Shown here piece after piece: positions 5,328-36,134 of a stretch of DNA of 38,003 nt (the stretch's first letter is position 1; each line of letters opens with the position of its first letter). A program made the translations under genes and the position numbers. Source of the stretch: a virus. Under the pieces are notes generated by a model. That model saw nothing but the letters and a program-made list of their open reading frames with translations, was not told where the DNA came from and did no database searches. The stretch is from positions 1-38,003 of IMG/VR virus record IMGVR_UViG_3300042115_000109; one strand, written 5' to 3'.

Positions 5328-5620
5328 ACACCTTGACCCCAGAAGTCGCCGCCCAAGTCGTGCTCGGAGACCTGCCGAAGCCGCCCGCGTTCGGCGCTGG
5401 AGCCCACGTCATGCTGTGGAGCCAGTCGCAGTGCGCGTTGCACATCGAGCCTGTCGAGGCGATGCTGAGATCCAACCGCCGCGCCTATGCTGACGACCGG
5501 CGCACGGACTTCGTGCCGTTGTACATCGGCACCGATGAGGACTGCCGTGCGATTGCCGATGACATCCGCGGGACGATGCGCAATCGTCAGGACGCCCGTG
5601 CCGGAGCGGCGCGCGCATGA
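5324..5620 (+). CDS. Hypothetical early phage protein
   Basis: The 98-residue product has no family I recognise. The GTG start overlaps the helicase stop and is preceded by a strong GGGAGG (5311-5316). The middle (residues about 25-80) alternates polar and hydrophobic residues like a small alpha/beta domain, and the C-terminus is Arg/Ala-rich. It lies between the helicase and the late regulator and is coupled to both by 4-base overlaps, so it is part of the early operon. Confidence 0.65.
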   Translation: MNTLTPEVAAQVVLGDLPKPPAFGAGAHVMLWSQSQCALHIEPVEAMLRSNRRAYADDRRTDFVPLYIGTDEDCRAIADDIRGTMRNRQDARAGAARA

Positions 5621-6015
5621 GTGTTGTCGCTGAACGCCGCGGCCGCGCATCCATCGACTTCCACGCCGTCGAGCCGCATCAACGTGCCATGGACCGTCGC
5701 CTGGCCAACTGGGCGCGCTGGTGCAACGGCACCTCGGCGCCGATGACTTCACCCATGTTCCGCATGACGCCGCCGCCCCCTCGCGTCCGTGCGGACATGG
5801 CCTACCAGATCTCGGATGTGCTGGACACGGCCGATGCCACGAAGATGGCCAAGGCGGTGGCCGCGCTGCCGCAGTCGAACCGCACTGCGATCAACTGGCA
5901 CTACGTCAAGCCTGTGAGCCCGAAGCGCGCATGCCAGGCGCTCGGCACCACGATGGAAGAGCTGGCGAAGCTGGTACGCGACGGTCGTCAGATGTTGATC
6001 AACCGTGAAGCCTGA
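5617..6015 (+). CDS. Putative late-gene regulator (antiterminator Q-like, sigma region-4-like fold)
   Basis: The product has 132 residues. Residues about 25-40 contain LANWARWCNG, a signature near the start of Q-like antitermination proteins. The second half (ATKMAKAVAALP, then INWHYV, SPKRACQALGTTMEELAKLV) is a helix-turn-helix of the kind seen in sigma region 4 and phage antitermination proteins. Its place at the end of the early operon is where lambda-like phages keep Q. It would switch on the late operon. The ATG overlaps the preceding stop (ATGA). The late genes do not start until about 12 kb, after the cargo. The assignment is by pattern and position only. Confidence 0.62.
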   Translation: MSVVAERRGRASIDFHAVEPHQRAMDRRLANWARWCNGTSAPMTSPMFRMTPPPPRVRADMAYQISDVLDTADATKMAKAVAALPQSNRTAINWHYVKPVSPKRACQALGTTMEELAKLVRDGRQMLINREA

Positions 6016-6023
6016 AGCTGCGG

Positions 6024-6215
6024 CTAAGGTCCAATTTCTCCGGACGCCGGCACATCCATCGTCACGGCGAGCCATTCCACGCCGCGCTCTGGCGGTTCAG
6101 TAGGCGCTTCGAACGCTTGATCCATGGGCTCCTCGTAGTCTTCTCCACCGCCACATGCGGTCAGCGACGCAGTAGAAGCAACGAGCGCAAGTGTGAGGAT
6201 GAACTGGTGGAACAT
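6024..6215 (-). CDS. Small lipoprotein
   Basis: This leftward 63-residue protein has a lipoprotein signal peptide with lipobox LTAC and the acylated cysteine at position 21, followed by GGGEDYEEP. The mature part is only about 42 residues, acidic and Pro/Glu-rich, and has no recognised domain. The absence of an Asp at +2 suggests outer-membrane sorting by the usual enterobacterial rule. Its orientation opposite to the late operon fits a gene expressed from its own promoter in the lysogen (a moron). Confidence 0.72.
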   Translation of the reverse strand: MFHQFILTLALVASTASLTACGGGEDYEEPMDQAFEAPTEPPERGVEWLAVTMDVPASGEIGP

Positions 6216-6364
6216 TTGGCGTGCGAAGTGAGCGAATCGATGTCGATATTGTTTCGCTCCTTAATGCAACCCTTGCGGCACAAACGCACACGGGCCCCGC
6301 TGTCCTACGCGGTCGACACAGTTCCTCCACAGTCATATGAGTGGCGGCGACTTCCTTGCTTCGG

Positions 6365-7009
6365 CTAACGGCGCTGTCCCATCCGGCGCCGCACCCATGC
6401 AAGAAGGCCGAGTCCAGCCATCAGCAAGCCCAGCGATTTAGGCTCTGGGACTTCGGAAACTGCATCGAACTGCACGGAGGTCAGATCCAGGGAGCCACCG
6501 AAGCTTCTGCCGGCAAAAAAGGAGGCAGACGATGCGTCCAGGTCGATCGTCCCCGGGCGGAGCGTTTTGGGGTCGACGCCATCGAAGAGCGAGCCGAACA
6601 GCGTCAAGCTTGCAAACCAGTATGGGAAAGAGAAGTCGGGCGAGAACGTGGTCCTCTTGCCGCTCGCATCGTTCGTCAGATACAGCGCGTTGTTCCCGTT
6701 TGAACCATCGAAGAGAACTGTTGCCTGTCCTGGGACTGAGAACGTGAGCTTCATCCGTCCCGGCTCGAAGATGGTGAAGCTGGACTCTGCATCCTCCTCA
6801 GCCGGTGGCGGGAGGCTGCTCGTGTCCAACCAGAACGTGCCCGTCACCGTGGCTCCGTCAAAGTTTCCGGGGTTCGGGCTCGTGCCGTTGATTCGAGAGC
6901 CAAACGCCACGCCAGCAAACGTGCCGCTCACTGGGGCCGAGTGCACTGCGCTGGCGCAGGCCAGCCCCAACGTCAGAACGGTCGCGGTAAACGCATGGAT
7001 CGGGCCCAT
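6365..7009 (-). CDS. PEP-CTERM exosortase-substrate protein
   Basis: This 214-residue exported protein has a signal peptide (cleavage after about VHS-A) and a C-terminal sorting signal: VPEP from residue 187, a hydrophobic helix (LGLLMAGLGLLAWV) and a basic end (RRRMGQRR). Exosortase/archaeosortase enzymes recognise this signal, and such proteins are linked to exopolysaccharide and floc or biofilm formation. The mature domain is beta-rich, beginning PVSGTFAGVAFGSRINGTSP, a pattern common in PEP-CTERM proteins of unknown function. The start is supported by AAGGAG five bases before the ATG. No exosortase is encoded in the window, so the host must supply it. Confidence 0.9.
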   Translation of the reverse strand: MGPIHAFTATVLTLGLACASAVHSAPVSGTFAGVAFGSRINGTSPNPGNFDGATVTGTFWLDTSSLPPPAEEDAESSFTIFEPGRMKLTFSVPGQATVLFDGSNGNNALYLTNDASGKRTTFSPDFSFPYWFASLTLFGSLFDGVDPKTLRPGTIDLDASSASFFAGRSFGGSLDLTSVQFDAVSEVPEPKSLGLLMAGLGLLAWVRRRMGQRR

Positions 7010-7335
7010 CTGATCTCCTTGATGAATTAGGCGAAAGAGTCTGGGCGCTTCAGGGCGAGGTGTAAAGAGGGCCGCAGGGGCACCCCGTAAGCCGGAGCCA
7101 CGCGATCCAACGTGCGCCTTCGCGATTGGCCTGGATGGAAACCCCTTGTGCGTGGCTCAATGTTCGTGTATCGTCCTACCCCAACGACTGAGCGAAAACG
7201 CATACCCAGGGTCGCCCATCCATGTAGGAGGTGGCGGTGTGCCGGTAGCTCAGTTGAACCAGAGCCCTCCCATGTGGAGGGCTTTCGCGTTTCTGGACGC
7301 CGTGCCTACGATGTTTGCTTTGCCTCGGAGGCAAC
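7010..7335. other. Intergenic stretch with one terminator
   Basis: It holds the upstream region of the leftward PEP-CTERM gene and the terminator at 7263-7292. A weak sigma-70-like pair (TTGTGC 7146-7151, TATCGT 7169-7174, 17-base spacer) points rightward. At 7240-7265 a short stretch resembles the D-arm half of a tRNA (GGTAGCTCAGTTG then GAGC) but no T-arm follows. I see no gene. Confidence 0.5.
7263..7292 (+). terminator. Rho-independent-like terminator
   Basis: A perfect 8-bp stem AGCCCTCC (7263-7270) / GGAGGGCT (7276-7283) with a CATGT loop is followed by TTCGCGTTT. Read rightward it would stop transcripts before the gene at 7336. The same stem occurs again at 8060-8079. Confidence 0.7.
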
Positions 7336-7671
7336 ATGAGCGAACCAAATCGCAGTCAACGCATCCTCAACGCGTTGAACCAACTGCAGCAGTTTCTTCC
7401 TGCCCGTCGGTCGAACGACCAGGTGGCGGTCAACGTGCTGACCGGCGCGAGCGTCACGGCTGTGGCCTCCGATGACAAGGACAGCGGAATGCTGTTCGTG
7501 AAGTTCCCGGGCGGCGAGTCGATCGAGGTCAATGGAGACCTTTATCTCGATTTGCAGGTCACGCAGTGCGCCCGGTTGACGGTCGATGGGTCTCTTGACG
7601 GTGATGGCAGCTATGCCAAGCAGAGCGCGAGCGACTCTGCGCGCATCCACCAAAAGCACGAGCTTGATTGA
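7336..7671 (+). CDS. Hypothetical protein
   Basis: The product has 111 residues and no recognised family. The ATG at 7336 has a GGAGG four bases upstream. Residues about 1-30 are helical and Gln/Arg-rich; the middle (about 32-90) alternates like a small beta-rich domain (VAVNVLTGASVTAV, then GMLFVKFPGGESIEV). A terminator precedes the gene and a perfect inverted repeat follows it, so it is probably a single-gene unit in the cargo region. Confidence 0.68.
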   Translation: MSEPNRSQRILNALNQLQQFLPARRSNDQVAVNVLTGASVTAVASDDKDSGMLFVKFPGGESIEVNGDLYLDLQVTQCARLTVDGSLDGDGSYAKQSASDSARIHQKHELD

Positions 7672-7681
7672 GGGCTGGCGT

Positions 7682-7703
7682 CATGTGGGTCAGTTCCCAC
7701 ATG
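7682..7703. repeat. Perfect 8-bp inverted repeat after the 7336-7671 gene
   Basis: CATGTGGG (7682-7689) and CCCACATG (7696-7703) are separated by TCAGTT. There is no T-run on either side, so it is either a weak transcript end or a protein-binding site for the following gene's control region. Confidence 0.7.
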
Positions 7704-7795
7704 GACGAGCGCTCCTGCATGACATTTGCCGATGCGCGTCGTTCCTACTGTGAGCCCGTGGGCCATCCGGTTCACGCAACACAGGAGACTTTAAG

Positions 7796-8038
7796 ATGAC
7801 GCAACCGAACCAGAACCAGGGCCAGAACTCCAACCCGCAGTCGCCCCAGACGCAGCAGAGCGCGACGAACCCCAGCACCAGCGGCATGGATAACAAGGGC
7901 CAGCAGATGCCGAACCAGGGCAACCAAGCTGGGCAGAACAGCCAGCAGCCTGGTCAGCAGCAGATGGACCCGAACCAGAAGCAGACAAGCGGCCAGCAGG
8001 GGCAGCAGGGGCAGCAGTCTCCCAATCAGCAGAAGTGA
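7796..8038 (+). CDS. Gln/Asn-rich low-complexity small protein
   Basis: This 80-residue protein is made largely of Gln, Asn, Pro, Ser and Gly, with almost no hydrophobic residues and no signal peptide. AGGAG lies eight bases before the ATG, and a clear terminator follows at 8060, so it looks like a real single-gene unit. The composition predicts an intrinsically disordered protein, and the Q/N content resembles prion-like or condensate-forming segments. No function can be assigned; similar short Q-rich proteins occur in Burkholderiales genomes from general knowledge. Confidence 0.7.
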   Translation: MTQPNQNQGQNSNPQSPQTQQSATNPSTSGMDNKGQQMPNQGNQAGQNSQQPGQQQMDPNQKQTSGQQGQQGQQSPNQQK

Positions 8039-8059
8039 AGCCGTTGTCAGCGGCTGGCG

Positions 8060-8085
8060 AGCCCTCCATGTGGAGGGCTTCTTAA
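8060..8085 (+). terminator. Terminator of the Gln/Asn-rich gene
   Basis: AGCCCTCC (8060-8067) pairs with GGAGGGCT (8072-8079) around an ATGT loop, followed by TCTT. It lies 21 bases after the stop codon. The stem is identical to that at 7263-7283. Confidence 0.7.
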
Positions 8086-8130
8086 TGGGTGAGCCGACCG
8101 ACTGGGGCGGGTTCACGATTCTTGCGCCGA

Positions 8131-8727
8131 TCAGGTCCCTGGTGTGCCATTCGCTCCACCAGCGCCTTTGGGACCGTCGACTGGCAGGGTGATCTGGCAT
8201 ATCAGTCGCAGCTTGATCAGGAAGGTCGTTGCCTGGGCGCCAGTTGTAACGTTCGACAGAGTGTCGATATGGTTTGCCACTCGCTGCTGAAAATCGCGTT
8301 GAGCGGCGACGGCTTGCTCCGCTGAAAATCCTGAAGTGGTCAGCGCCGCCTGCCCAGCGTTTGCCGCGCCGGCAACGCCCCCCCAAGCGGCGATAGTGGA
8401 CTTCGCTGCGGCCTTGGCTGCAAGTGCTGGTACGACAATGGATCCGGCGATGATGCCAACGCCCGCGATTGACAGCTGCAGCTTCCGAGACTTGTTGGTT
8501 AGTAAACCCAGCTCATCGGCCCGGTCTTCACAGGCGGAGAGTTCGGCCAAGACTTTCTCGTAGAAGTTCGCGACACCAGGATCATCAGCTGCGCCTTTAC
8601 TGAAGTCCGTGGCCGAGATGTCAGCGAGTTGCTGCGAAGTCATTCGTGAGGCGCATCCGCTGAGTAGTGAGACGGCGAGTAGGGCACTGAGGGCGGCAGA
8701 TGCGGTGTGCTTTCGAGTCGGGTTCAT
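8131..8727 (-). CDS. Lipoprotein with central hydrophobic segment
   Basis: This leftward 198-residue protein has a lipobox LSGC with the acylated cysteine at position 25. A helical region (about 30-80) is followed by a hydrophobic Ala/Gly/Ile stretch (about 88-130) that could insert in or lie on a membrane, then a Gln-rich helix and a Gly/Pro-rich tail. I do not recognise a family. AAAGGCG upstream of the ATG is a reasonable ribosome site. Together with the lipoprotein at 6024 and the PEP-CTERM genes it makes the cargo region rich in envelope proteins. Confidence 0.75.
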   Translation of the reverse strand: MNPTRKHTASAALSALLAVSLLSGCASRMTSQQLADISATDFSKGAADDPGVANFYEKVLAELSACEDRADELGLLTNKSRKLQLSIAGVGIIAGSIVVPALAAKAAAKSTIAAWGGVAGAANAGQAALTTSGFSAEQAVAAQRDFQQRVANHIDTLSNVTTGAQATTFLIKLRLICQITLPVDGPKGAGGANGTPGT

Positions 8728-8835
8728 GTTTTCGCCTTTGCGTCAGTGGCGGAAAATCTTAGGGGCCAGGAGATTGAGAGCCATCCTCTAAATTGACGAT
8801 GTCGAGATTCGTAAGCTAGGTGCCATCTACAGGAA

Positions 8836-8860
8836 CCTGCTTCGGCGGGCTTTCGCGTTT
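8836..8860 (+). terminator. Terminator-like hairpin with TTCG loop
   Basis: CCTGC (8836-8840) and GCGGG (8845-8849) flank a TTCG loop, followed by CTTTCGCGTTT. The 18 bases at 8847-8864 are identical to 7279-7296 downstream of the first cargo terminator. No rightward gene ends just upstream, so it may be a transferred or leftover terminator. Confidence 0.45.
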
Positions 8861-8966
8861 CTGGTGGGTTAAGCACTCCGCGCGGCGCCGCATGTGCAGG
8901 GTCGGAAGTTCCCGGCCGCCCGCCGCCTTGTTCCCGCTCTGCCTCGGCATCGGGCTGAAGTCCAAC

Positions 8967-9011
8967 TCCCCCGGATTCGGGGGAATTGGCCGCCCGGGCT
9001 GACGCCGGGCG
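8967..9011. repeat. Two adjacent GC-rich hairpins
   Basis: TCCCCCG (8967-8973) / CGGGGGA (8978-8984) with a GATT loop is followed by CGCCCGG (8991-8997) / CCGGGCG (9005-9011) with a 7-base loop. Neither has a T-run. They may be remnants of an intergenic repeat or mRNA-stabilising structures. Confidence 0.55.
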
Positions 9012-9123
9012 CCGCAGGAACTGCCGCAATTAGGACATGGTGCGTTTCAGTGCCGGTGTTGCCGGAATTCATAACGGGTAGCCTTCCAACAAGCTGCATC
9101 AAACGTCGAAAAAATTGACATAA

Positions 9124-9138
9124 GTAACTGCAAGTTAC
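9124..9138. promoter_or_regulatory. Palindrome, possible operator
   Basis: GTAACT-GCA-AGTTAC is a perfect 6+6 inverted repeat just after a TTGACA hexamer (9115-9120), about 110 bases upstream of the PEP-CTERM start and about 48 bases before the sigma-54-like -24 element. An activator or repressor site is an inference. Confidence 0.45.
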
Positions 9139-9185
9139 AGACACTGGAGAGTGAAGTTCTTTGAATTTCCTTGCAAAGTTTGTTA

Positions 9186-9200
9186 TGGCATGAAGTGTGC
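9186..9200 (+). promoter_or_regulatory. Candidate sigma-54 (RpoN) promoter
   Basis: TGGCATG-AAGT-GTGC keeps the invariant GG (9187-9188) and GC (9199-9200) with the required 10-base spacing and differs from TGGCACG-N4-TTGC at only two positions. Transcription would start near 9212, giving a 35-base leader before the ATG at 9247. RpoN with the PrsK/PrsR two-component system is known to control some PEP-CTERM genes in floc-forming betaproteobacteria. Confidence 0.45.
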
Positions 9201-9246
9201 TTTCGAGAGGAATTCAACTGCGTTCAACACAGCCCGAACCCATCCA

Positions 9247-9846
9247 ATGTTGCTTAACTCCTTCCGCGCCGCCCTTGCCGCAATCTCTTTGAGCCTGGGG
9301 GCGTCGGCTGCCAGTGCAGCCCCGATCCAGTATGTTTTCAGTGGCACCGCAACGTCTGGGGCGCTCGCCGGACAGGAGTTTTCAAACACCGTTTTCGAGT
9401 TCCGCATGTTTGGCGATACGGCCAACGTCGCGGGAGACTGCGCAGCGCTTTGTAAAAACATTGCCTCGTCCGTATCTTTCTCGATCAGTGGGATTGGCAG
9501 TGGCACGCTTGACCTTTCGTACGCCATCTTTCTCAACGCTACGAGTACTGCCGTGGGAATGCAGCTCGCCAATGATTTTGATCGTGTGGACCTGTATGGT
9601 GTTCCATCGATCGTCGGGTACGACCTCGCTTCCAACTTCGGACCCCTGACGTCCGGTTTCTCATTTGTCGGCCAATTCAACCCGGACCCCACTTCTGCGG
9701 GAAGCCTGTCGTTGGTGGGTGGGACTGGAGTCACGTTTCAGGCGATCATGCAGGACACCCAGGCAGTGCCCGAACCTGCTTCTCTCGCGCTGGTCGGCCT
9801 TGCGCTGGTCGGGCTTGCGGCAAGTCGCCGGCGCAAATCTGATTGA
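9247..9846 (+). CDS. PEP-CTERM exosortase-substrate protein
   Basis: This 199-residue exported protein starts at the ATG at 9247, where the signal peptide begins (MLLNSFRAALAAISL, cleavage after about ASA-A). The C-terminus is a textbook PEP-CTERM signal: VPEP from residue 174, hydrophobic LALVGLALVGLAA, then SRRRKSD. The mature domain starts APIQYVFSGTATSG and contains TFEFRMFGD-like beta strands typical of the group. Exosortase would process it at the inner membrane during export. It is not similar enough to the 6365-7009 protein to be a recent duplicate. Upstream lie a sigma-54-like promoter and a palindrome. Confidence 0.9.
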   Translation: MLLNSFRAALAAISLSLGASAASAAPIQYVFSGTATSGALAGQEFSNTVFEFRMFGDTANVAGDCAALCKNIASSVSFSISGIGSGTLDLSYAIFLNATSTAVGMQLANDFDRVDLYGVPSIVGYDLASNFGPLTSGFSFVGQFNPDPTSAGSLSLVGGTGVTFQAIMQDTQAVPEPASLALVGLALVGLAASRRRKSD

Positions 9847-21278: not shown

Positions 21279-21335
21279 AGGCCGCTCTTCGCGGCCTTTT
21301 TCTTTTCAACCTGTCGGCCGCCTTGCGGCCTTTCT
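21279..21335 (+). terminator. Tandem terminators before the tail tube gene
   Basis: AGGCCGC (21279-21285) / GCGGCCT (21291-21297) with a TCTTC loop and TTTTCTTTTC is followed by GGCCGC (21316-21321) / GCGGCC (21325-21330) with a CTT loop and TTTCTC. They separate the head-joining genes from the tail tube gene and would act as partial stops in the late operon. Confidence 0.78.
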
Positions 21336-21352
21336 CACTGGAGGCACCACAA

Positions 21353-22216
21353 GTGACCGTCAAGACCCAAGGCACCGACCTGTTCGGTATCGACCCCCGC
21401 GACAACAGCCTGCTCGTCGTGGGCTGCGTCACCACCATCGACGGCATCGACTCCGCGGTCGAGCAGATCGAGACGACCTGCCTGAACTCGGGCAAGGATC
21501 GCAAGTACGTGGCCGGCATGGGCACGCCCGGGGCCGGCTCGTTCGGCATCAACACCGACCCGTCCGACGCCTCGCACCTGAAGCTGTACGAGCTCAAGCA
21601 GCTGGGCCTGACCATCGAGTGGGCGATCGGCTGGGGTGACGGCCCGATGCAGCCGGATGGCACCATCGACCTGCCGCCCGAGGTGGCCGACGGCGACTTC
21701 GTGCTGCCCTCGGGCCGCTCCTGGCTCCTGTTCGAAGGCTACCTGTCCTCGTTCCCCTTCAGCTTCGCGCTGAACAGCGTGGTGCAGTCCACCGTCGGCA
21801 TCCAGATCAGCGGCACGCAGGTCCTGATCCCGAAGTCGGCCGGCAACCGCCCGCGCTGGTTCGTGGGCCCGGCCAACGCGCACTCGGTCGGCACGCAAGC
21901 CTTCCTGGACGGCGCCACGCAGTTCGGCAACGGCGGCACCAAGACCGGCCAGTTCACGATCACGACCACGACCGACAACTACGGGTGGGTGGCAGTGCCT
22001 GCGGACGTGTCCGCTGCCGGCGTGACCTTCACCGACTCCAGCAACACCCCAGGCGACTGGAACGGTGCCGGCGAGAGCGGCCCGAACACCGATGGCGGCC
22101 CGTCGCCCGCGCAGTCGAGCGTGACCTTCGCTGACGAGGAGAGCTTCGTGTGGCGCCTGTTCCGCATGGACTACCCGCACGCCGAGCCGACCCCTGCCAC
22201 CTGGACGATCAGCTAA
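21353..22216 (+). CDS. Major tail (tube) protein
   Basis: The 287-residue protein begins at a GTG (TVKTQGTDLFGIDPRDNSLL) with GGAGG nine bases upstream. The core (VVGCVTTIDGIDSAVEQIET, then LKQLGLTIEWAIGWGDG and FEGYLSSFPFSFALNSVV) fits the siphophage tail tube fold. The C-terminal half (about 190-287) looks like an added beta-sandwich exposed on the tube surface. Position before the tail chaperones and tape measure supports the assignment. It is followed by the esterase-like protein after only nine bases. Confidence 0.82.
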   Translation: MTVKTQGTDLFGIDPRDNSLLVVGCVTTIDGIDSAVEQIETTCLNSGKDRKYVAGMGTPGAGSFGINTDPSDASHLKLYELKQLGLTIEWAIGWGDGPMQPDGTIDLPPEVADGDFVLPSGRSWLLFEGYLSSFPFSFALNSVVQSTVGIQISGTQVLIPKSAGNRPRWFVGPANAHSVGTQAFLDGATQFGNGGTKTGQFTITTTTDNYGWVAVPADVSAAGVTFTDSSNTPGDWNGAGESGPNTDGGPSPAQSSVTFADEESFVWRLFRMDYPHAEPTPATWTIS

Positions 22217-22225
22217 GGAGCGCGC

Positions 22226-25200
22226 ATGCCTGAATTCACCACTCCCGTGGGCAGCCGGCAGCGCTACATCGCGGCCCTCAGCCGGTCGCAGGGCGACCGT
22301 GTGCCCGGCACCAAGAAGATCTTCGTTGACCGTCAGGATTTCCTCGACCGCATCGCCGACGAGCGCGCCTGCATCGCCATGGGCCTGCCGGTCTGGTTCA
22401 GCGGCATCGACCTGAAGATTTTGGCCGAGCCGGCCAGCGTGCAGCGCCTGTGGTCCCTCTCGACCTCTGCCGGCTCGCCGACGGCCAACGCCGCGGCCAG
22501 CCACGGCCGGACTGTCGTCGTCGGCGCGTTCTCCAAGGTGCTGTTCGCCGACGCCAGCCTGGTGCACGCCACGACCGGCGTGCCGGCACCCAGCCTGGGC
22601 GCAGACGGCGACCTGGCGCTCGACGCCGTGGCCGGCATCGTCTACGAGAAGGCGGCCGGCGCCTGGTCCCTGCTCGTGGCCATGTACGGCGGTGGCTCGA
22701 TTTCGCCGCTGGTGCCGAGCGCCGTGCGCAACCTGGCGGCCGGCACCGCGACCGCCAACGCGCAGCCGCTGACCTGGGACGCACCCGAGACCGGCGTGGG
22801 CCCGTTCACCTACCAGGTCGCCTACCGTCTGGGCACCTCGACCGGGGCGTTCACCAACTTCGGCGCGCCCGTCAGCGGCACCGCCGCGACGGTGACCGGG
22901 CTGGCGGCGAACACCGGCTATGACTACCAGATCACGCCGATCAACGCGGCCGGCCCTGGCGCCGTCGCGACGCTGGAGGACATCCCCACGGCGGCTTCGG
23001 GCGGCGGCACGGTGCCGACCATCGACGCATCGCCGAGCAGCCAGACCATCGGTCCTGGCGGCACGGCAACGTTCAACGTGTCCATCGGCGGCATCTACAC
23101 CGACGTGGAATGGCAGGTGCAACCTCCTGGCAGCGCCTGGGCCGATGTCAGCGAGTCCAGCACCACGCTGACCTTGACCGGCGTGGACATCGATGCAGAC
23201 CAGACCAAGGTGCGTGTGCGTGCCGTCAACGGCTCACTGTTCTCTGACTGGTCCAGCGAGGCCGTGCTGACCGTGGCTGAGGCCGGCGCCGTGCTGCGTG
23301 CTTCGGCACCGTTCGACGCGCTGTTCTCCGGCGCCCAGAACTCCAGCGCCAATGACGGCCGCATCAACCTGGGCAACGTCACGCTGCGGGCAGACGGCGA
23401 CTGGGCGGTGTTCGTCTCGACCGCCTGGCGCTCCGCTGCGCTGAACATGGGCGGTGGCATCGTGTCCATTGGCGACCAGTCGGACACGCTGCTGACGGGC
23501 AATTCAGCACTGGCCATCGGCATGTTCGGCTCGGGCGCATCCAACCCGTGGTCTGACGGCAGCTTCGCCGGTGTGCCGTTCGTTGTCGCGCGCGACGACG
23601 GCGGCGTCCGCGCGACCAACCGCACGCCGCCTGGAACCATGCTCCCGGGCACCATGAAGCCCTACATGCTGCTGGGCAAGGCCTCGACGCTCGCGGTGCC
23701 GGGCAACTCGGCGCACAGCTTCATGGTGACCTGTGAGTCCGGGGTGATCAAGTTCTGGGACTGCGACCCGGGGCACGAGCCCATCCTGCAGGACGCCGGG
23801 CCGGGTGGCAATACGACGACCGCGGATGGCGGCTTTGCCTTCACCGGCATCGCCAACAAGCCCATGTTCCTGGGCATGCTGAACCACGTCACCCAGAACA
23901 CGCAGCAACTGCGCACGTACTGGGGCGGCCCGATCAGCCAGGTCATCGTCTTCAACGGCGGTGCCATCACGAAGGCCCAGGCGCGGCTGCTGTCGCAAGG
24001 CATCGATGCGCGCGACGTGCTCACCTTCGACGCCGCGCGCGGTGATCGCTACTGGCCTGGCAACGCGCTGGCCGGAGATGCCACCAAGATGGAGGAGCTC
24101 ATCGCGGGCCAGCACGGCACGGTCGAGGGCACGGGCGTGACCTTCCCGGCGACCACCAAGCCTCAGCTGGTCTACGAAGCCGTGACCTGCGGCTGGCGTC
24201 CTGGCACGGTGTGGACGGCTGCAAATCAGCCGGCAACGACCACCACGCTGCGCATGTGGGGCCATCGGCGCGGCCCGGGAACGACGACCATTCAGGCGCG
24301 CATCGTCGCGATCACGGCCGCGTTCCCTGCAGCCGGCGCCGACATCGTCCAGGACTGGGCAGATGTCGCGACGGGCGTGGCAGACGGCCCGTGGGCCGGC
24401 AACTTCAATGTTCCGCACCTTGCCGGCTACTGGTTCGTGGAGACCCGCTTCCGCAAGGCCGACACTACCTGGTCGGATCCGGCTCGCCTGCAGGGTCAGT
24501 ACGCGATCGGCGATGGCGTCATGGTCATGGGGCAATCCATCCTGGCCAAGTTCAACGACGACGCTGGCACCCGGGCTGTCTCGGCCGGCGCGCAGGGCAA
24601 GATCAACACGTACAACAAGCACTTCCCGGTGTACTCGATCAACCGCGTGCTGGGAACCCACCGCACCGGGTGGCTGCGACGCGCGGCCACGTCGTACACC
24701 GACCTGTACGGTCAGACGCTGTACTGCGACCTGCTGGCGAACATCACCGGCCGGCACGCCTACATGATCCACAGCGCGATCCAGGGCATCAGCCTGTCGC
24801 GCTACAACGTGCCAGGCACCACGTGGGATCGGTGCAGGGAGGTGATCCACGAGGCGCGCCCGAAGAACTTCGTCTGGAGCAACGGCCAAGGCGATGCCGC
24901 GCAAAACGAGGCAGCCCGCTGGCCCGAGCTGGACAAGCTCTATGCGCAACTGGAAGAGGCCACGAGCACTGCCCCTGGCGGCGCCTACACGGATTGGGTG
25001 CTGGGCATCATCCCTGTTGGCTCGGACTTCGTCACCGCAGGCCTGAACACCACGCGCAACAGTGACCAGCTCTGGGTCGAGGCTCGGCAGGCGCAAGGCT
25101 GGAAGGTCTGCCTGGCAACGACGCTGACCGACGTGCCCAACACGCTGGATGGCGTCCACTACCGCCCGACCCTGAACGAGCAAGGTGCCTTGGCGGAACG

Positions 25201-25660
25201 CCTGGCCACGTTCGTCGGGTGGCGTGCAGGGTTCCTGCCGAACGACGGCAACGGCGGGTACATGAAGACCGCGACCTACACGTACGACTCCGGCTCGCAA
25301 ACCGTCACGATCCAGCAGCCCATCACGGGCGGCAACGGGTCGTACGCAACCAAGGGCGGCGGCAATCCCTCGGGTTTCCGCATCAGCATCAACGGCGCCG
25401 CGTCGGTGGTGCCGAGCACGAGCGCACTGGCCGGCAACGTGGTCACGCTGACGCTGACCGGTGTGGCGTCCGCTCCCACCAGCGTCGGGGTGTCGTACCT
25501 GTCCGGTTACCCCGGTCCCACGGCGGGCGGCGCGACGACGCCGGAGACGACTTCCGGCATCGACAACGCGCTGTACGACGTGCGCAGCGGCATGGTCAGC
25601 GCGAGCAAGGGTATGCCTGTCCGGGCGAACCCGACCTTGGTGATGGCAACCGCAGCGTGA
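22226..25660 (+). CDS. Multidomain tail protein with FN3, Ig-like, lectin-like and SGNH-esterase-like domains
   Basis: This 1144-residue protein is the largest surprise of the tail block. The N-terminal domain (about 1-160) is of unknown fold. It is followed by an FN3 domain (about 163-255), an Ig-like domain (about 262-350) and a LamG/concanavalin-like domain (about 353-600). A C-terminal SGNH/sialate-O-acetylesterase-like domain follows: MVMGQS with nucleophile Ser771, SNGQGDA around 885-891, and LDGVHYRP with Asp975 and His978. Such enzymes remove acetyl groups from polysaccharides. It is predicted to be a tail spike or tail-surface enzyme acting on capsular or exopolysaccharide. Location between tail tube and chaperone is unusual. 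Domain limits are by eye. Confidence 0.75.
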   Translation: MPEFTTPVGSRQRYIAALSRSQGDRVPGTKKIFVDRQDFLDRIADERACIAMGLPVWFSGIDLKILAEPASVQRLWSLSTSAGSPTANAAASHGRTVVVGAFSKVLFADASLVHATTGVPAPSLGADGDLALDAVAGIVYEKAAGAWSLLVAMYGGGSISPLVPSAVRNLAAGTATANAQPLTWDAPETGVGPFTYQVAYRLGTSTGAFTNFGAPVSGTAATVTGLAANTGYDYQITPINAAGPGAVATLEDIPTAASGGGTVPTIDASPSSQTIGPGGTATFNVSIGGIYTDVEWQVQPPGSAWADVSESSTTLTLTGVDIDADQTKVRVRAVNGSLFSDWSSEAVLTVAEAGAVLRASAPFDALFSGAQNSSANDGRINLGNVTLRADGDWAVFVSTAWRSAALNMGGGIVSIGDQSDTLLTGNSALAIGMFGSGASNPWSDGSFAGVPFVVARDDGGVRATNRTPPGTMLPGTMKPYMLLGKASTLAVPGNSAHSFMVTCESGVIKFWDCDPGHEPILQDAGPGGNTTTADGGFAFTGIANKPMFLGMLNHVTQNTQQLRTYWGGPISQVIVFNGGAITKAQARLLSQGIDARDVLTFDAARGDRYWPGNALAGDATKMEELIAGQHGTVEGTGVTFPATTKPQLVYEAVTCGWRPGTVWTAANQPATTTTLRMWGHRRGPGTTTIQARIVAITAAFPAAGADIVQDWADVATGVADGPWAGNFNVPHLAGYWFVETRFRKADTTWSDPARLQGQYAIGDGVMVMGQSILAKFNDDAGTRAVSAGAQGKINTYNKHFPVYSINRVLGTHRTGWLRRAATSYTDLYGQTLYCDLLANITGRHAYMIHSAIQGISLSRYNVPGTTWDRCREVIHEARPKNFVWSNGQGDAAQNEAARWPELDKLYAQLEEATSTAPGGAYTDWVLGIIPVGSDFVTAGLNTTRNSDQLWVEARQAQGWKVCLATTLTDVPNTLDGVHYRPTLNEQGALAERLATFVGWRAGFLPNDGNGGYMKTATYTYDSGSQTVTIQQPITGGNGSYATKGGGNPSGFRISINGAASVVPSTSALAGNVVTLTLTGVASAPTSVGVSYLSGYPGPTAGGATTPETTSGIDNALYDVRSGMVSASKGMPVRANPTLVMATAA

Positions 25661-25702: not shown

Positions 25703-26119
25703 ATGAAGAAACTCAAGGGCCTCGCCGGCATGAAGTCGGCCGGGGCCATCCGCGACCTCGCGCCGGTCATGCAGACCATCGAATGGAAGGGCGACGACGG
25801 CGAGGACTACTCGATCGACGTGTACGTCAAACCCATGGCCTTCGGCATGGCGATGGACCTGCAGACCGATGACTCGCCCGACAAACGCGCGGCGGCCATC
25901 GGTCAGATGGTCCTGGTCGAGGAGGGCGGCAAGATGGTGCCGCTGGGCACCGAGAACGCACGCGCGCTCAACTCGCAACTTGGCTTCAAGCTGCTGGTGG
26001 CCATCAACCAAGCCATGGGTGGTGGCGCAAAAAACTCACGGCCGCCGACGAGCTCCTCTGCGAACTCGTCCTCAACGGAATCGGCGGCCGAACCCTCGCA
26101 GAAGCCCGAGAGCGTCTGA
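25703..26119 (+). CDS. Tail assembly chaperone, short form (lambda G-like)
   Basis: This 138-residue protein is the zero-frame product. It opens with MKKLKGLAGMKSAGAIRDLA and has a beta-rich core (IEWKGDDGEDYSIDVYVKPM). After the slippery site (codon 109) it becomes a Ser/Thr/Pro-rich tail with no structure, as expected for the non-shifted end of a chaperone. Most ribosomes should make this form. In lambda-like phages G coats the tape measure protein before tube growth. Confidence 0.85.
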   Translation: MKKLKGLAGMKSAGAIRDLAPVMQTIEWKGDDGEDYSIDVYVKPMAFGMAMDLQTDDSPDKRAAAIGQMVLVEEGGKMVPLGTENARALNSQLGFKLLVAINQAMGGGAKNSRPPTSSSANSSSTESAAEPSQKPESV

Positions 26120-26376
26120 GCGCTGAAGAGGTGATGGTCTGGGCGGCGTACGTGGCCCGCTTCGGCACCTTGAACGTGGGCCATCGGCTGGAGTACTTGC
26201 TGGGCCGATCTGACTGGCGTCGCGACGCCAGCAACGGCGGCAAAGAGACGCTGGACAAGTTCCTGCGCTACCACGACGCGCCGCCCGAGGACGAGCCGGC
26301 CAAGCCCACAACCGCATCCCTGGAAATGATCGCGCGCATGTTCCGTGCGCCGGTGGAGGTACGCCATGGCAAGTAG
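25703..26376 (+). CDS. Tail assembly chaperone, long -1 frameshift form (lambda GT-like)
   Basis: Slipping back one base after AAC at 26033-26035 continues into the -1 frame from CTC at 26035, giving LTAADELLCELVLNGIGGRT, then EEVMVWAAYVARFGTLNVGH and on to a TAG at 26374-26376. The fusion has 111 + 113 = 224 residues. The added part reads like a genuine helical T domain, whereas it has no start codon of its own near its beginning (an ATG at 26134 would miss the first third). The T domain contacts tail tube subunits in lambda. Confidence 0.9.
26029..26090 (+). promoter_or_regulatory. Programmed -1 frameshift signal
   Basis: The heptamer A AAA AAC (26029-26035) is in the right frame for simultaneous slippage. 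Three bases later a perfect 10-bp GC-rich stem begins: CGGCCGCCGA (26039-26048) with TCGGCGGCCG (26081-26090). Within the loop CGAG (26049-26052) can pair with CTCG (26065-26068). The arrangement is a classic slippery-site-plus-structure signal. Spacer length is short, which may tune efficiency. Confidence 0.93.
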
Positions 26377-29877: not shown

Positions 29878-30273
29878 GTGCACACCGACCGCTTCATTGG
29901 CATCCCGTATTGCCCGCGGAGGATGGACTGCGCCGACTTGGTCATGCTCGTGCAGCGCGAGCTGTTCGAGCGCGAGGTCGTCTTCGCTGGCAAGCGGCCC
30001 CGGCCGTTGGCCGATGCTGACCAGGACGCGGCCCTTGCAGCCTACACCGCCGAGTTGGCTCACCAGGTCGGCGAGCCGCGCGACGGCGACGTGGTGCTGA
30101 TGCGCGAGGGCGGCAAGACCATGGCCGGCCACGTCGGCACCTACTTCTTTCTGAGCCACATGCCCCACGTGCTGCACACCGCGGCATGGATGCAGGGCGG
30201 AAGTTCGCTGCACAAGATCAAGGACCTGCCGGGCATCGGCCTGACGGTCATGGGGTACTACAGATGGAACTGA
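29878..30273 (+). CDS. NlpC/P60-like tail peptidase (lambda K position)
   Basis: The 131-residue protein starts at GTG, two bases after the previous stop. It carries the NlpC/P60 catalytic pattern: MDCADLV with nucleophile Cys18, and GHVGTYF with His85; a later His (94, 97 or 100) could be the third residue. These enzymes cut peptidoglycan stem peptides and may open the wall during DNA entry. It overlaps the tip gene by 10 bases. Length is near the minimum for the domain. Confidence 0.82.
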   Translation: MHTDRFIGIPYCPRRMDCADLVMLVQRELFEREVVFAGKRPRPLADADQDAALAAYTAELAHQVGEPRDGDVVLMREGGKTMAGHVGTYFFLSHMPHVLHTAAWMQGGSSLHKIKDLPGIGLTVMGYYRWN

Positions 30274-33200
30274 ACCGCGCCGAGCTGGCTGCTGTTGACG
30301 GCGTCGAGGCGGAACTGCTAGACGCCTGCGGTCGCCTGGTCATCACGCCGAACTTTGCGACCCTGGAAGGGCAACGCAATGTCCCGGCCGACCTGCTGCC
30401 GGGCGAGTCCTTGGCTTCGTTCCTGGAGCGTCACGTGCCGGGCATCCACTCCGGCGCTTGGGCGGTCAGCATCGCGCGCAGGACCGTGCCGCCGGCCATG
30501 TGGTCCCGCACGTTCCCGAAGCACGGGATGCTGATCGCCTGCCGCGCCACGGCCGGCAAGCAGGTCGTGGCCATCATCGCCATCGCCGTCCTCACGTTCT
30601 TCTCGGCGGGCATCGCAGCCGGCATCTATGGTGCTGTCGGTGGGACCTTCGTCGCGGCATCTGCCGGCGCCACGCTCGCCGCGATCCAGGCCGGCGTCGT
30701 CATCGCAGGGACTGCGCTGATCAACAAGGTGCTGGCGCCCAAGGTGCCCAGCGCGTCGAGCGCGCCTGGCGCGCGCGCCATCTACAGCCTGAGCGGCCAG
30801 CGCAACAGCGTCCGCCCGTACCAGCCGATCCCGACACTGTGGGGCGAGATGCGCGTCACCCCGGACGCCGCCAGCGCCGCCTACACCTGGTTTGAAGGGG
30901 ACGAGCAGTACCTGAGCCTGATCCTGCTGGGTGGGGTCAATGTGCACACCGCTTCCGACTTCACCGTCGGCGACTCGCCCCTCAGTGGCTACAGCGATGT
31001 GACGGTGTTCTGCAGCGGGTTCCCGGGCATGGCCAGCCAGGACATTCCCCTGTACAGCAACGCCGACAGCATCACCGGCGCCGAGCTGGAGAATGACGGG
31101 GCATGGGTGACGCGGACCAGCTCGCCCGATGCGATTGCGCTGCAGTTCGACTTCGAGGGCCAGCTGTACGACATCGGCGGCAAAGGGCAGACGCAGACCA
31201 ACAGCGTGCCGGTCTACATCGAGACGCGGCCGGTCGGCACGTCCGACTGGTCCCCGGCGTTGACGCAGACGCTGACCAATGCGACGGCGGACGTGATGCG
31301 TCGGACGTTCACCGTCCAGGTCGCGAAGGGCCAGTACGAAGTCCGCGTGCGCCTGGGCGCCCCGACCTGGGATCAGGGCGAGGGGAAAGACCAGTGCAAG
31401 ATCGGCTGGAACGTCTTGCGCACCATCCAGCCCGACGAGACCGACTACAGCGACTGGGGCCGTATCGGAATCAAGATCAAGGCCAGTGGCCAGATCTCTG
31501 GAAGCCTGGACACGGTGCGCGCAACCTACCGCGCCCGGCCGATGCCCATCTGGAACGGCTTGGCGTGGGCCACGGCAACCACGCGCGAGGACGGGCTGTC
31601 CAACCCCGGCGCCATCCTGCTGCAGACCATGCGCGGCGTGTACGCCAACGGCGAGCTGCAGTTCGGCTTTGGGCTTCCCGACGAGCAGATCGACATCGAG
31701 GGCCTGAAAGCCTTCATGCTCCACTGCACGGCCAATGGCTACACCTACGACAAGTGGGTGACCGACGCAGTGTCGCTCGGGCAGTTCTGCCAGGAGGTGG
31801 CGCTGGCGGGCATGGGCGAGTTCAGCTGGACGGACGGCAGCCGACCGACGGCGGTGTTCGTGTCCAGCGGCCAGCCGCTGTCCGGCGTGGCGAACATGGC
31901 CACCATGCTGAAGGCTTCCTTCGAGGTCTCCTACAGCCTGAGCAACGCTGCCGACGGCATCGAGTACCAGTACCTGGATCGCGACCGGAACTGGGAGACG
32001 CAGACGCTGCGCGTGGCCGCGCCCGGCGTCACCACGATGCTGAACCCGGCCCGCATCACCGGCGAAGGGGTCACCAGCGAGGCGCACGCGGCCATCATGG
32101 CGCGCTACCACCTCGCCCAGAGCCTGTACCAGTTCAAGACGATCAGCTACACGGCCGACATCGAGCATCTGGACTACCGTCGCCTGTCGCTGCTGTCCAT
32201 CAGCCACGACCTGACGCAGTGGGGCTACGGCGGGCGGCTGATGTCGGCGCAGACCGTGGCCGGCAAGGTGGTGCTGCAGCTGGATGAGCCGGTGCCGCCC
32301 ATGCCGCAGGCGTTCATTGGCGTCCGGCTGCCTGGTTACCGCGACTACCGCGTGTTCCAGGTCGAGGCGCTGGCGGCGGCATCCGACCAGGTGACGCTGG
32401 CGGATCCGTGGCCGGCTGGGCTGCCCCTGCCCGGCGCGACCACGGACGACCCGGCGCATGACACCCTGTGGTGCTACGACTTCAAGCCAACGCCCGGCTA
32501 CCGCGTGCGCGTGGTCAGCATGGAGCCCGAGGCGGACCTGAAGGGCGCGCGCATCTCCTGCGTGCCGGAAGGCCCGGAGTTCTGGGACTACGTCATCAAC
32601 GGGAACTATGTCCCGGCGCCGAACGGCTCGTCGCTGACGGCGAACCTGCCGGTCGCGAGCGGCCTGCAGATCACGCGATCGCGCGTGAAGGTGGGGGCAG
32701 GCTGGGAACACGAGCTGTCTGCGACCTGGGATGTGACCGGCAACTACGACCACGCCCAGGTGTGGGCGGGGCCCGTGGGCCAGCCGCTGGTGCTGATCGA
32801 CAGCAACGTGTATGGCACGCGGCTGGCCTGGCGCGTGCCTTCCGACACGACCTGGTCGGTCGAGGTGCGCCCGTTCGATGGCCTGGGCCGGATGGGCACG
32901 GCCGCGTCCATCATCTTCGTGGACCCGAGCGTGGTGGTCGGCGAGGTGGTAGGCCTGGCGGCGTTCGTGGAAACCAACGGCATCGTGCTCCGGTGGAGCG
33001 CGCCCCAAGGCATCGACGCCATCGACTACGCCACCACGCGGATCCGCAGGGGCCTGGCCGGCGCGACCTGGGAGACCGCAACGCCGGCATTCGAAGGCCG
33101 CACCGACAGCGTGAACCTTGGGTGGCTGCAAGCCGGCACGCACGTCTTCTTCGCGTCGCACATCAACACCGCGGGCGATGAGTCCGTGCCCGTGAGCACC

Positions 33201-36134
33201 GCCCTGCTGATCGAGGCGCCGAGCCAGCCGATCGTGACGGGCAAGGCCTTCGGGTTGCAGGCCGAGCTGTACTGGACCAACTCGGCCGGCACGCAGCCGC
33301 TGCGCCACTACGAAGTGCGCGTCGGCCCGATCTACAACGAAGCCGACGTGCGCACCACCACCGATGCGCTGGGCTACATCTACAGCACGCCGTCGGCGGG
33401 CGTCTACATGCACTGGGTGACGGCCATCGACATGGGCGGTAACCGCTCGGCGCCCGGCTATGTGGAGATCACGACGCTGCCGGACATCGGCGAGGCAATC
33501 GCCGAGCTGGAGGAGGGGCTGGACGAAGCGGTCCTGGCCATCGGCGCGAACACGGCCGACATTGGCGTGATCAACGCGCAGCTGGCCGACATTGCCGGCG
33601 CGGCCGAGTGGGATGTGGGCGCCACCTACAGCGAGGGCGGCATCGTCAAGCACGACGGCGGCCTGTTCCGCTCGCTGCAGGACGGCAACGTGGGCCACGC
33701 GCCGGACACCTCGCCCACCTGGTGGCAGAAGATCGGCGACTACGACACCCTCGGCGAGGCCGTGGCCGCGCATGCTGTGCAGCTCTCGGAGCAGGCGACC
33801 CGTATCGAGGCCACCGAGGACGGCCTGCAGGCCCAGACCGAGCGCGTCGATCTGCTGGCCACCACCGTGACGACGGCGCAGCAGCAGGCCATCAACGCCG
33901 CTGTGCAGGAGGAGGCGGAGGCCCTGTCCAGCGAGATCGCCGCGGAGGCCCAGGCGCGTCAGCAGGTGGTGGCGAACATCACCAGCGCGAGCAGTGCCAA
34001 CCTGGTCACCAACCCGACCTTCGACCCGGCTGGCTGGCGGTATGCGGCCGATCCGACGATCGCAACCGACTATTTCGCGCGTGGCGGCGCGGGTGTACCA
34101 GCCGGGGCGCCGTCGGCCCGCGTGCTGCGGCTGACCAAGGGCACGGCGCTGGGCGTCTGGTCGGGACACAACATGCGCTTCGGCATCAGTGCCGCAACGC
34201 TGGCCGAGGCGCGTCCCGGCGAGATCGTGGACTTCTCCGTTTCGGTTTGGGCGCCGACCGGCACAACGTCCAACGCAGTCCACGTGCAGATGTTTGCCGT
34301 CGATGCCGCAAACGCGTTGATTGCGGGCACCCTCACAACCAGGTCCTACAACGGTGCTGCTGGCGGCTGGCAGGTACTGTCGGGCGTGCTGACGCTGCCG
34401 GCCGGGACTGTCGCGTTCGCCGGGCACTTCGCCATCGGCGATGCGGCCCCGGCAGGTCAGGTGATGTGGGTCGCCGAGCCCGATGTGCGCAAGCGCAGCG
34501 CGAGCGCGCTGGTGCTGGGCGCCAGTGTGGCCACGACCTCGCAGGCCCTGGCCACGCTGGACGGCAAGGTGGCGGCCAGCTACACCGTCAGCGTGCAGGC
34601 CGGCAACCTGGTCGCTGGCATCCGCCTCGGCACCGATGGCGCCACGTCGGACTTCGTGGTCCTCAGCCACAAGTTCGCCTGGGCCTACCAGGCCACCGGG
34701 GAAGTGAAGTACGGGTTCGTGGCTGGCCTGATCAACGGCGTGCCGTCGTTTGGCCTGAACGGCAACATGTTCATCGACGGCACCGTGATGGCGCGCATGG
34801 TGGGCGCCGACCAGATCCGCGGCACGCACATCCGCGGCGAGGAGATCGAGGGCCGGCACGTCAAGACCGGATCGCTGACGGCAGACAAGGCCGCTTTCGG
34901 CGTCAGTGCCAACTTGATCCCCAACTCGGTGCTGGTGACCGACAGCGGCTGGTTCGCCGACAACGGCAATATCGGTACGGCGTGCGTGCTCGCGCTGGAC
35001 TATCCAGATGCAAATTGGCGCCCGGCAGGGGGGCACGCCCTGTGCATCCACCAGCCCAATGAGGTGAACGCTGGCGCCAATCTGGTGGCCCAGTGGTACA
35101 CCGAGTCCATCCCGGTTGAGGGCGGCAAGCGCTACCAGTTCTCAGGCTACACCGCGGCGCACCGTTGCACGGCCTACGTCATGGTGGCTTTCTACGATGC
35201 CGGGGGCACCTACCTGGGGGAGTGGAATGCGTCGGAAATGAACGCGGCCACCCACGGGGGCGGCGTAGCGCTGTCGGGCTACAAGCGCCTCGGCGGCTTC
35301 GTGACGTGCCCGGCTTCCTCGGCATCGTGCCGCTTCTTCCTGCGCAAGTTTCCGACCCATCCAGGTGGTGGCAACAGCTACGCATGGTTGACGCAGCCGA
35401 TGTTGGCCGCGGCCGGCGCCTATCAGACGGCGTTGTCGGAGTACGCGGCGGCCGGCGTTGGCACGTTCATCGACGAGTCCGGCATCCGGACATCCAGCCT
35501 GGGCGCGCTGTCTCGCGACCTGGGCCTGGTCGTGTACGGCCGCATGGTGTCGGCCGACGGGCGGATGACCATCGACCTGGACGGCAAGTCGCTGTACATG
35601 CTCAGCGCCGGCCGTCGCGTCGAGCTCAGCCCGAACAGCGGCTTCTACGTCGGCGATGACGCAGGCGCAGGCAACTTCCTGCGCTACAACATCAACACGG
35701 GCCAGCTGCTGCTGCGCGGGGCCTTCACGGCCGACACGATCAACGCTGTCTCGACGCTGAACATCGCTGGAGGGGCTGTCACCACCAAGCGTTTCGCCTC
35801 GTCGGGCGGCCTGGCTTCTCAGGGCATCACGATGGTTGCCGGTAGCTCAGGCGTCGTGATTCGTGGCGTCGTTCACGTCACGATCGTTCCGGTCGGCGAG
35901 GGCAATCCCGCCGAGCTGACAGTCGGCATATACCGTGATGCAAGCAATTCGGAACTCAGTACCGCTCGCGTTGGCCTGCCCATCGGTGGGCAGCAGATTC
36001 GGATGAGCATCCCTCTGGACGCTTTCGATGCGGCGCCCATTGCCGGCTGGAACACGTACTCGCTCCGGTTCATCGGGCCGTCCTCTGGCCAGCTACACGG
36101 ATCGACCATCACATTGGAAGGAGGGCAGCGGTGA
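30264..36134 (+). CDS. Tail tip / host-specificity protein (lambda J-like)
   Basis: The product has 1956 residues and starts at the ATG at 30264. Residues about 1-80 resemble a tip-attachment domain, about 95-155 form a hydrophobic helical stretch, and about 175-880 the J-type hub with IPTLWGEMRVTPDAASAAYT. Two FN3-like domains (about 890-1075) are followed by a coiled coil and a CBM5/12-like carbohydrate-binding module (WDVGATYSEGGIVKHDGGLF, about 1115-1160). More coiled coil leads to two CenC-like beta-sandwich domains (from about 1245 and 1547) around a DUF1983-type segment (about 1425-1530, GFVAGLING and FIDGTVMARMVGADQI), then a C-terminal receptor-binding region. It recognises the host surface. 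Domain limits are by eye. Confidence 0.88.
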   Translation: MELNRAELAAVDGVEAELLDACGRLVITPNFATLEGQRNVPADLLPGESLASFLERHVPGIHSGAWAVSIARRTVPPAMWSRTFPKHGMLIACRATAGKQVVAIIAIAVLTFFSAGIAAGIYGAVGGTFVAASAGATLAAIQAGVVIAGTALINKVLAPKVPSASSAPGARAIYSLSGQRNSVRPYQPIPTLWGEMRVTPDAASAAYTWFEGDEQYLSLILLGGVNVHTASDFTVGDSPLSGYSDVTVFCSGFPGMASQDIPLYSNADSITGAELENDGAWVTRTSSPDAIALQFDFEGQLYDIGGKGQTQTNSVPVYIETRPVGTSDWSPALTQTLTNATADVMRRTFTVQVAKGQYEVRVRLGAPTWDQGEGKDQCKIGWNVLRTIQPDETDYSDWGRIGIKIKASGQISGSLDTVRATYRARPMPIWNGLAWATATTREDGLSNPGAILLQTMRGVYANGELQFGFGLPDEQIDIEGLKAFMLHCTANGYTYDKWVTDAVSLGQFCQEVALAGMGEFSWTDGSRPTAVFVSSGQPLSGVANMATMLKASFEVSYSLSNAADGIEYQYLDRDRNWETQTLRVAAPGVTTMLNPARITGEGVTSEAHAAIMARYHLAQSLYQFKTISYTADIEHLDYRRLSLLSISHDLTQWGYGGRLMSAQTVAGKVVLQLDEPVPPMPQAFIGVRLPGYRDYRVFQVEALAAASDQVTLADPWPAGLPLPGATTDDPAHDTLWCYDFKPTPGYRVRVVSMEPEADLKGARISCVPEGPEFWDYVINGNYVPAPNGSSLTANLPVASGLQITRSRVKVGAGWEHELSATWDVTGNYDHAQVWAGPVGQPLVLIDSNVYGTRLAWRVPSDTTWSVEVRPFDGLGRMGTAASIIFVDPSVVVGEVVGLAAFVETNGIVLRWSAPQGIDAIDYATTRIRRGLAGATWETATPAFEGRTDSVNLGWLQAGTHVFFASHINTAGDESVPVSTALLIEAPSQPIVTGKAFGLQAELYWTNSAGTQPLRHYEVRVGPIYNEADVRTTTDALGYIYSTPSAGVYMHWVTAIDMGGNRSAPGYVEITTLPDIGEAIAELEEGLDEAVLAIGANTADIGVINAQLADIAGAAEWDVGATYSEGGIVKHDGGLFRSLQDGNVGHAPDTSPTWWQKIGDYDTLGEAVAAHAVQLSEQATRIEATEDGLQAQTERVDLLATTVTTAQQQAINAAVQEEAEALSSEIAAEAQARQQVVANITSASSANLVTNPTFDPAGWRYAADPTIATDYFARGGAGVPAGAPSARVLRLTKGTALGVWSGHNMRFGISAATLAEARPGEIVDFSVSVWAPTGTTSNAVHVQMFAVDAANALIAGTLTTRSYNGAAGGWQVLSGVLTLPAGTVAFAGHFAIGDAAPAGQVMWVAEPDVRKRSASALVLGASVATTSQALATLDGKVAASYTVSVQAGNLVAGIRLGTDGATSDFVVLSHKFAWAYQATGEVKYGFVAGLINGVPSFGLNGNMFIDGTVMARMVGADQIRGTHIRGEEIEGRHVKTGSLTADKAAFGVSANLIPNSVLVTDSGWFADNGNIGTACVLALDYPDANWRPAGGHALCIHQPNEVNAGANLVAQWYTESIPVEGGKRYQFSGYTAAHRCTAYVMVAFYDAGGTYLGEWNASEMNAATHGGGVALSGYKRLGGFVTCPASSASCRFFLRKFPTHPGGGNSYAWLTQPMLAAAGAYQTALSEYAAAGVGTFIDESGIRTSSLGALSRDLGLVVYGRMVSADGRMTIDLDGKSLYMLSAGRRVELSPNSGFYVGDDAGAGNFLRYNINTGQLLLRGAFTADTINAVSTLNIAGGAVTTKRFASSGGLASQGITMVAGSSGVVIRGVVHVTIVPVGEGNPAELTVGIYRDASNSELSTARVGLPIGGQQIRMSIPLDAFDAAPIAGWNTYSLRFIGPSSGQLHGSTITLEGGQR

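Follow-up and report, generated by a model that had tools for sequence, protein, structure and literature searches.

A SASA-like esterase gene beside the tail tube gene of a lambda/HK97-like virus record, and a recurring gene pair that may display such proteins on virions

Receptor-binding proteins with enzymatic activity are usually located on fibres or at the tip of the tail, and where tail tubes are known to be decorated, the decoration is a binding domain that belongs to the tube protein itself. The closest enzyme relatives of the protein analyzed here are acetylesterases of the SASA/CE6 type (PF03629), among them the 'sialate O-acetylesterase' of Rhizobium phage PPF1 and the acetylxylan esterase 1zmb. 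Phage-encoded SGNH hydrolases are also present in receptor-binding proteins such as G7C gp63.1, Possum gp66, and Klebsiella prophage fibres (PHROG 6102 'lipase'), and phage SGNH esterases that act on surface glycan have been documented (PMC13123978; PMC9569702). With respect to the tube itself, carbohydrate-binding modules on tail tubes have been documented in 936 phages (PMC6669499), and the decorated tubes include Ig-like tube domains, the carbohydrate-binding extensions of SPP1 and 936 TpeX (PMC6669499), and JBD30 (PMC11445458). Extensions of the SPP1/936 TpeX type are part of the tube protein, either directly or by frameshift, and have a binding role.

The window, by which we mean the whole stretch of DNA that was analyzed, is a virus record of 38,003 bases with the gene content of a lambda/HK97-like siphophage or prophage. 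Its genes follow the usual order of terminase, major head protein, portal, tail terminator, tail tube, tail assembly chaperone, tape measure, and J-like protein. The original prediction had placed an open reading frame of 1144 residues between the tail tube and chaperone genes, and both the frame and its neighbours (PF16460 upstream, PF16459 downstream) were confirmed. The gene in this slot starts with ATG preceded by GGAG, 9 nt past the stop codon of the tail tube gene (positions 22217-22225). Of the domain labels that had been given to the protein, FN3 was recovered by Pfam, and the Ig-like and lectin-like labels are plausible by eye, with no Pfam or PHROG profile matching either stretch. 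The features are the following, all on the plus strand:

21323-22216, plus: tail tube protein, 297 residues with a C-terminal extension (PF16460, 1.1e-52, residues 12-172)
21839-22213, plus: C-ext domain, tube residues 173-297, candidate docking site
22226-25660, plus: slot gene, anchored SASA-like esterase of 1144 residues (frame and residues verified)
22226-22705, plus: anchor, residues 1-160 (55-64% identity to the slot proteins of L003, L004, L005, and L019; 31% to L028)
22718-22960, plus: FN3, residues 165-245 (PF00041, 2.9e-7; the sole Pfam domain seen)
23015-23278, plus: Ig-like stretch, residues ~264-351 (by eye only)
23282-24145, plus: lectin-like stretch, residues ~353-640 (homology to L067)
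24503-25234, plus: SASA/CE6-like SGNH esterase domain, residues 760-1003 (hhalign, Foldseek, VIA-align)
24536-24538, plus: codon of Ser771, the proposed nucleophile, in block I GQS (invariant in the SASA alignment, kept in L067)
25148-25159, plus: codons of Asp975 to His978, block V DGVH (invariant in the SASA alignment, kept in L067)
25238-25657, plus: C-terminal region, residues 1005-1144 (homology to L067)
25703-26119, plus: tail assembly chaperone, downstream border of the slot (PF16459, 1.7e-10; PHROG 1749, 4e-19)

Some further observations concern the rest of the record. An open frame at about 26002-26320 overlaps the 3' end of the chaperone gene in another frame, comparable to a lambda-like G-GT frameshift product. 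The J-like protein (30186-36134, 1982 residues) has a weak CBM_5_12 match (0.0076) at residues 1141-1181, possibly a second carbohydrate-directed element. PEP-CTERM genes, an unusual phage cargo, are located between the replication and packaging genes: one at 9151-9846 on the plus strand (PF07589, 3.1e-7), and a second PEP-CTERM-like C-terminus around 6451 on the minus strand. The original prediction had read PEP-CTERM as a sign of a host that makes exopolysaccharide; the gene does lie inside the virus record, which is no demonstration of exopolysaccharide production by the host.

We take the slot protein to be a modular virion protein, with its anchor docked on the C-ext and its esterase on the tail tube deacetylating a host glycan, and we give this reading a probability of roughly 0.55. 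The N-terminal anchor of ~160 residues would dock onto the C-ext of the tail tube protein, whose gene lies directly upstream, and the FN3, Ig-like, and lectin-like parts would act as spacers between the anchor and the esterase. The SASA/CE6-like SGNH esterase, with Ser771 as the putative nucleophile and Asp975 and His978 as the accompanying pair, would be held along the tail tube or on some of its rings, where, as the phage adsorbs, it would bind an acetylated polysaccharide of a Comamonadaceae-type host and remove O-acetyl groups from it. In this scheme we infer the host and the substrate, catalysis, the physical docking itself, and the copy number as well as the presence of the protein in virions. 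As in the decorated tubes described above, the tube protein of the window has a C-terminal extra domain, and a putative carbohydrate-directed function lies near the tube. Unlike in SPP1 and the 936 phages, that function is carried by a separate gene with an enzyme and a dedicated anchor. With the SGNH receptor-binding proteins the window enzyme would share the expected deacetylation of a surface glycan, but its gene occupies the tube-chaperone slot and the N-terminal anchor is a different one.

This N-terminal anchor is the new part of the protein, and of more interest still is the gene pair formed by C-ext and anchor. A scan with the tube protein gave three close relatives, namely a metagenome contig (L004) and two prophages, one in Pseudorhodoferax soli DSM 21634 (L003) and one in Pseudorhodoferax sp. 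Leaf274 (L005), all three having tube proteins 75-79% identical to that of the window. All four tube proteins end in the C-ext of ~125 residues, which in the window is 65-73% identical to the C-ext of these three and 41% identical to that of L028, and which matches PHROG 14098 (tail protein) weakly (1.2e-4). The three relatives also have a gene in the same slot; the first ~160 residues of its product are 55-84% identical to the other members, and past the anchor these proteins are unrelated to the remainder of the window protein. In the named relatives PAJU2, SOVA965, and Vibrio phage P2 the tube proteins measure 157-164 residues and lack the C-ext, and there is no slot gene, a small chaperone-type or hypothetical gene following directly after the tube. 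Residues 1-165 matched none of the PHROGs at E up to 1 and gave only chance-level matches in a profile search of the PDB, and so they fall into no known family of tail fibre or spike anchors in these two collections. In the named phage genomes the whole window protein found FN3 only, and the C-ext, the L028 anchor, the L067 protein, and the L066 C-ext found no match.

Among 401 genomes of the host family the C-ext was present in three (P. soli, Leaf274, and G081), and the near-full anchor, leaving aside its generic second-half linker, was present in the same three; a search at the level of the order with both parts returned P. soli only. Scanning viral sequences with the C-ext gave seven further loci (L065-L071). 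In five of these (L066 to L070) the gene after the C-ext begins with the anchor, with HMM matches between 4e-27 and 4e-50; the downstream match is weak in L065 (6e-4), and L071, itself a weak C-ext match, has no downstream anchor. In two scans of viral contigs with the anchor, every locus returned had the C-ext upstream. The C-ext gene thereby stands immediately upstream of the anchor gene in nine of nine clear loci, the window counted, which are not nine independent events since several are close relatives.

The C-ext is fused to tube proteins of three families, PF16460, PF08813 (L065), and PF18906 (L066 and L068), and it is found on non-tube proteins in L067, L028/L069, and L070, so the pair does not require the tube itself. 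In L028 (G081), apparently the same phage as L069, the C-ext ends an Ig protein among the head-completion genes, and the gene that follows encodes the anchor with an SGNH hydrolase. The pair of L067 (3818-10242) lies between endolysin-like and Rz-like spanin genes, and its C-ext protein of 294 residues matched no family. Since the anchor enzymes of L067 and L028/L069 sit in lysis and head-completion regions, the slot is not the essential point either.

Apart from the window protein, the anchor was seen in nine proteins with differing cargo, and weakly in a tenth. SASA-like cargo is found in the window and L067, GDSL cargo in the second copy of L019, in L069/L028, and, below the Pfam cut-off, in L070, and tail-spike-like cargo in L066 (PHROG 19988); binding domains are also among the cargo, and some of it is unassigned. 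The second anchor gene of P. soli (L019), located just before the tape measure gene, carries a GDSL hydrolase (PF13472, 9.1e-8; PHROG 6102, 8.6e-31), and PHROG 6102 'lipase' enzymes are thus joined to the same anchor in L019 and L028. Directly after the first anchor gene of P. soli, in the tail region, lies an FAD-oxidoreductase gene on the minus strand (L019:11680-14151, 823 residues, PF12831, 2.1e-52). In the Leaf274 prophage a GH26 gene (L005:10727-11851, 5.3e-29) stands between the anchor gene and the chaperone gene, directly after the former, and in L004 a GDSL gene (1e-9) directly follows the anchor gene. An unassigned protein of 252 residues (L004:5609-6367) comes after that GDSL gene, at the expected place of the chaperone.

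The recurrence of C-ext and anchor with swapped cargo suggests a plug-and-socket mode of display, in which a portable socket of ~125 residues on structural proteins, fused to tail tube proteins of the three families or to other virion proteins, would receive a plug of ~160 residues that is carried by the next gene and docks unrelated enzymes or adhesins. We hold this generalization tentatively, at a little short of even odds. The anchored GDSL enzymes (L019 second copy, L069/L028, and L070) count in favour of docked enzymes, and the second anchor gene of P. soli, which has no C-ext gene adjoining it, counts against docking. Judged purely by gene linkage, docking of the anchor on the C-ext would be the most economical reading, and attachment of the esterase to the tube is plausible on the same grounds. 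The slot protein might instead be a receptor-binding fibre of the ordinary enzymatic kind, attached to the tip of the tail, the neck, or the head, with its adjacency to the tube gene accidental and the C-ext an independent adhesin of the tube. Such fibres commonly carry SGNH hydrolases (PMC13123978; PMC9569702), the anchor's second half (G-D-N-G-D-L ... Y-x-K ... G-A-W) is not confined to the pair but matches other proteins as well, and the L067 pair is located in a lysis region, all of which would fit. An accident of gene order, however, leaves unexplained that C-ext and anchor are adjacent across three tube families and several genome positions, and we regard an ordinary fibre as unlikely, although worth keeping in view.

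For the type of enzyme, ordinary searches came up empty. The catalytic domain had no direct family match in Pfam, NCBIfam, PHROGs, or PDB sequences; the Pfam SASA profile (PF03629) did not match it at E up to 10, nor in hmmscan; and tblastn found no homologue in phages, plasmids, or the 401 Comamonadaceae genomes. Those weak tblastn matches that were examined were antisense or otherwise due to chance and were rejected, as was the one match, by chance, in a DNA-motif scan for [VI]W[ST]NGQGD. G7C gp63.1 was dropped as a yardstick, being of the GDS type, whereas the window enzyme is of the GQS/SASA type and has no PHROG 6102 match. We therefore assembled a reference family of phage SASA-type acetylesterases from L039, which has a Pfam SASA match, and its phage relatives, annotated as 'sialate O-acetylesterase', 'putative acetylesterase', 'tail fiber protein', or hypothetical. 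Because pairwise Smith-Waterman comparisons with single SASA proteins failed, scoring no higher than shuffles except in one borderline case, profiles were required.

Against this family the domain alone reached an hhalign score of 32.3 (P 5.9e-4) with blocks I to III in register, the best of 150 shuffles being 23.8. Against an enlarged family it scored 31.4, compared with at most 22.8 for 300 shuffles, at most 18.7 for 23 other pieces of window proteins, and 15-18 for GDSL-type SGNH domains. With scores of 31-32 above all control maxima, the SGNH/SASA-type triad of the original prediction is more than a chance motif, and it sits where it had been placed, Ser771 within VMVMGQS and Asp975 and His978 within LDGVHY. 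Kinship with SGNH families, missed by the Pfam SASA profile, was brought out by the profile-profile comparison. When the domain is aligned with four further SASA proteins, GQS, W884/G887/D890, and D975/H978 do not vary, so that the nucleophile block is exact, and both Ser771 of block I and the Asp975-x-x-His978 of block V, as used to define the SGNH superfamily, are conserved. The window domain shares with SASA/CE6 enzymes GQS, the block II A-x-x-G, W-x-x-G-x-x-D, and D-x-x-H, all in register; it differs in lacking the PF03629 match, in its ~20% identity, in its block III, WSNGQGD, which nevertheless aligns ungapped to the WxQGExD family consensus, and in being fused to an anchor and spacer domains. 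We name the domain SASA-like and do not file it under PF03629.

The one homologue of the window esterase is the L067 protein (5384-9838), with an anchor 30% identical, and it retains GQS and DGxH. Smith-Waterman scores between the two proteins were 187 for the esterase domain (best shuffle 60), 111 for the C-terminal region (at most 59 in 300 shuffles), and 240 for the lectin-like region (at most 78 in 500 shuffles), so the lectin-like stretch has a genuine homologue. A profile of this pair matched the phage acetylesterase family over 196 columns with blocks I to V in register (hhalign probability 90.6, P 1.3e-6). Structure prediction of residues 638-1005 by AF2 from the single sequence was unusable (pLDDT 32), and a 5-row alignment gave a low-confidence model (pLDDT 46, pTM 0.51) whose fold may have been shaped by the SASA proteins in that alignment. 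The PDB matches of this low-confidence, SASA-informed model were almost all SGNH hydrolases, including CE2, CE3, CE6-type, and GDSL esterases; the best was CE2 2wab with Foldseek (E 6.7e-4) and CE3 2vpt with VIA-align (Z 12.1), the latter program giving Z 11.1 for 1zmb over 189 residues. On account of the hhalign result with the L067 pair and the model matches to SGNH carbohydrate esterases, the assignment of the domain as an SGNH hydrolase of SASA/CE6-like type is well supported, and deacetylation of sugars on the bacterial surface is the most likely function of the slot protein. That the domain is catalytically dead and acts in glycan binding is improbable: block III does depart from the consensus, and the lectin-like and FN3 parts hint at binding, but Ser, Asp, His, and the motifs are retained both in the window and in the distant L067.

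A read-through extension of the tube protein, comparable to SPP1 or the lactococcal 936 frameshift extensions, was considered since C-ext and next gene are in frame in the first five loci (gaps of 9, 12, 12, 12, and 15 nt in the window, L003, L004, L005, and L028), but was rejected as barely credible because the gaps of L066, L067, and L068 (52, 14, and 77 nt) are out of frame, each of those first five starts is preceded by GGAG, and the window esterase, with its own frame and start after a tube gene ending in TAA, is not translationally continuous with the tube as TpeX-type extensions are.

The family libraries searched recognize neither the anchor nor the C-ext/anchor pair, and such proteins therefore currently carry either a hypothetical label or one that names just their cargo. 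If our reading is true, a virion could be armed in another manner, by a separate enzyme that sits on a tube socket and can be swapped to change the glycan target, and the socket would be an easy means of protein display on siphophage tails. Unrelated phages could in that case equip their tails with interchangeable glycan-modifying enzymes.
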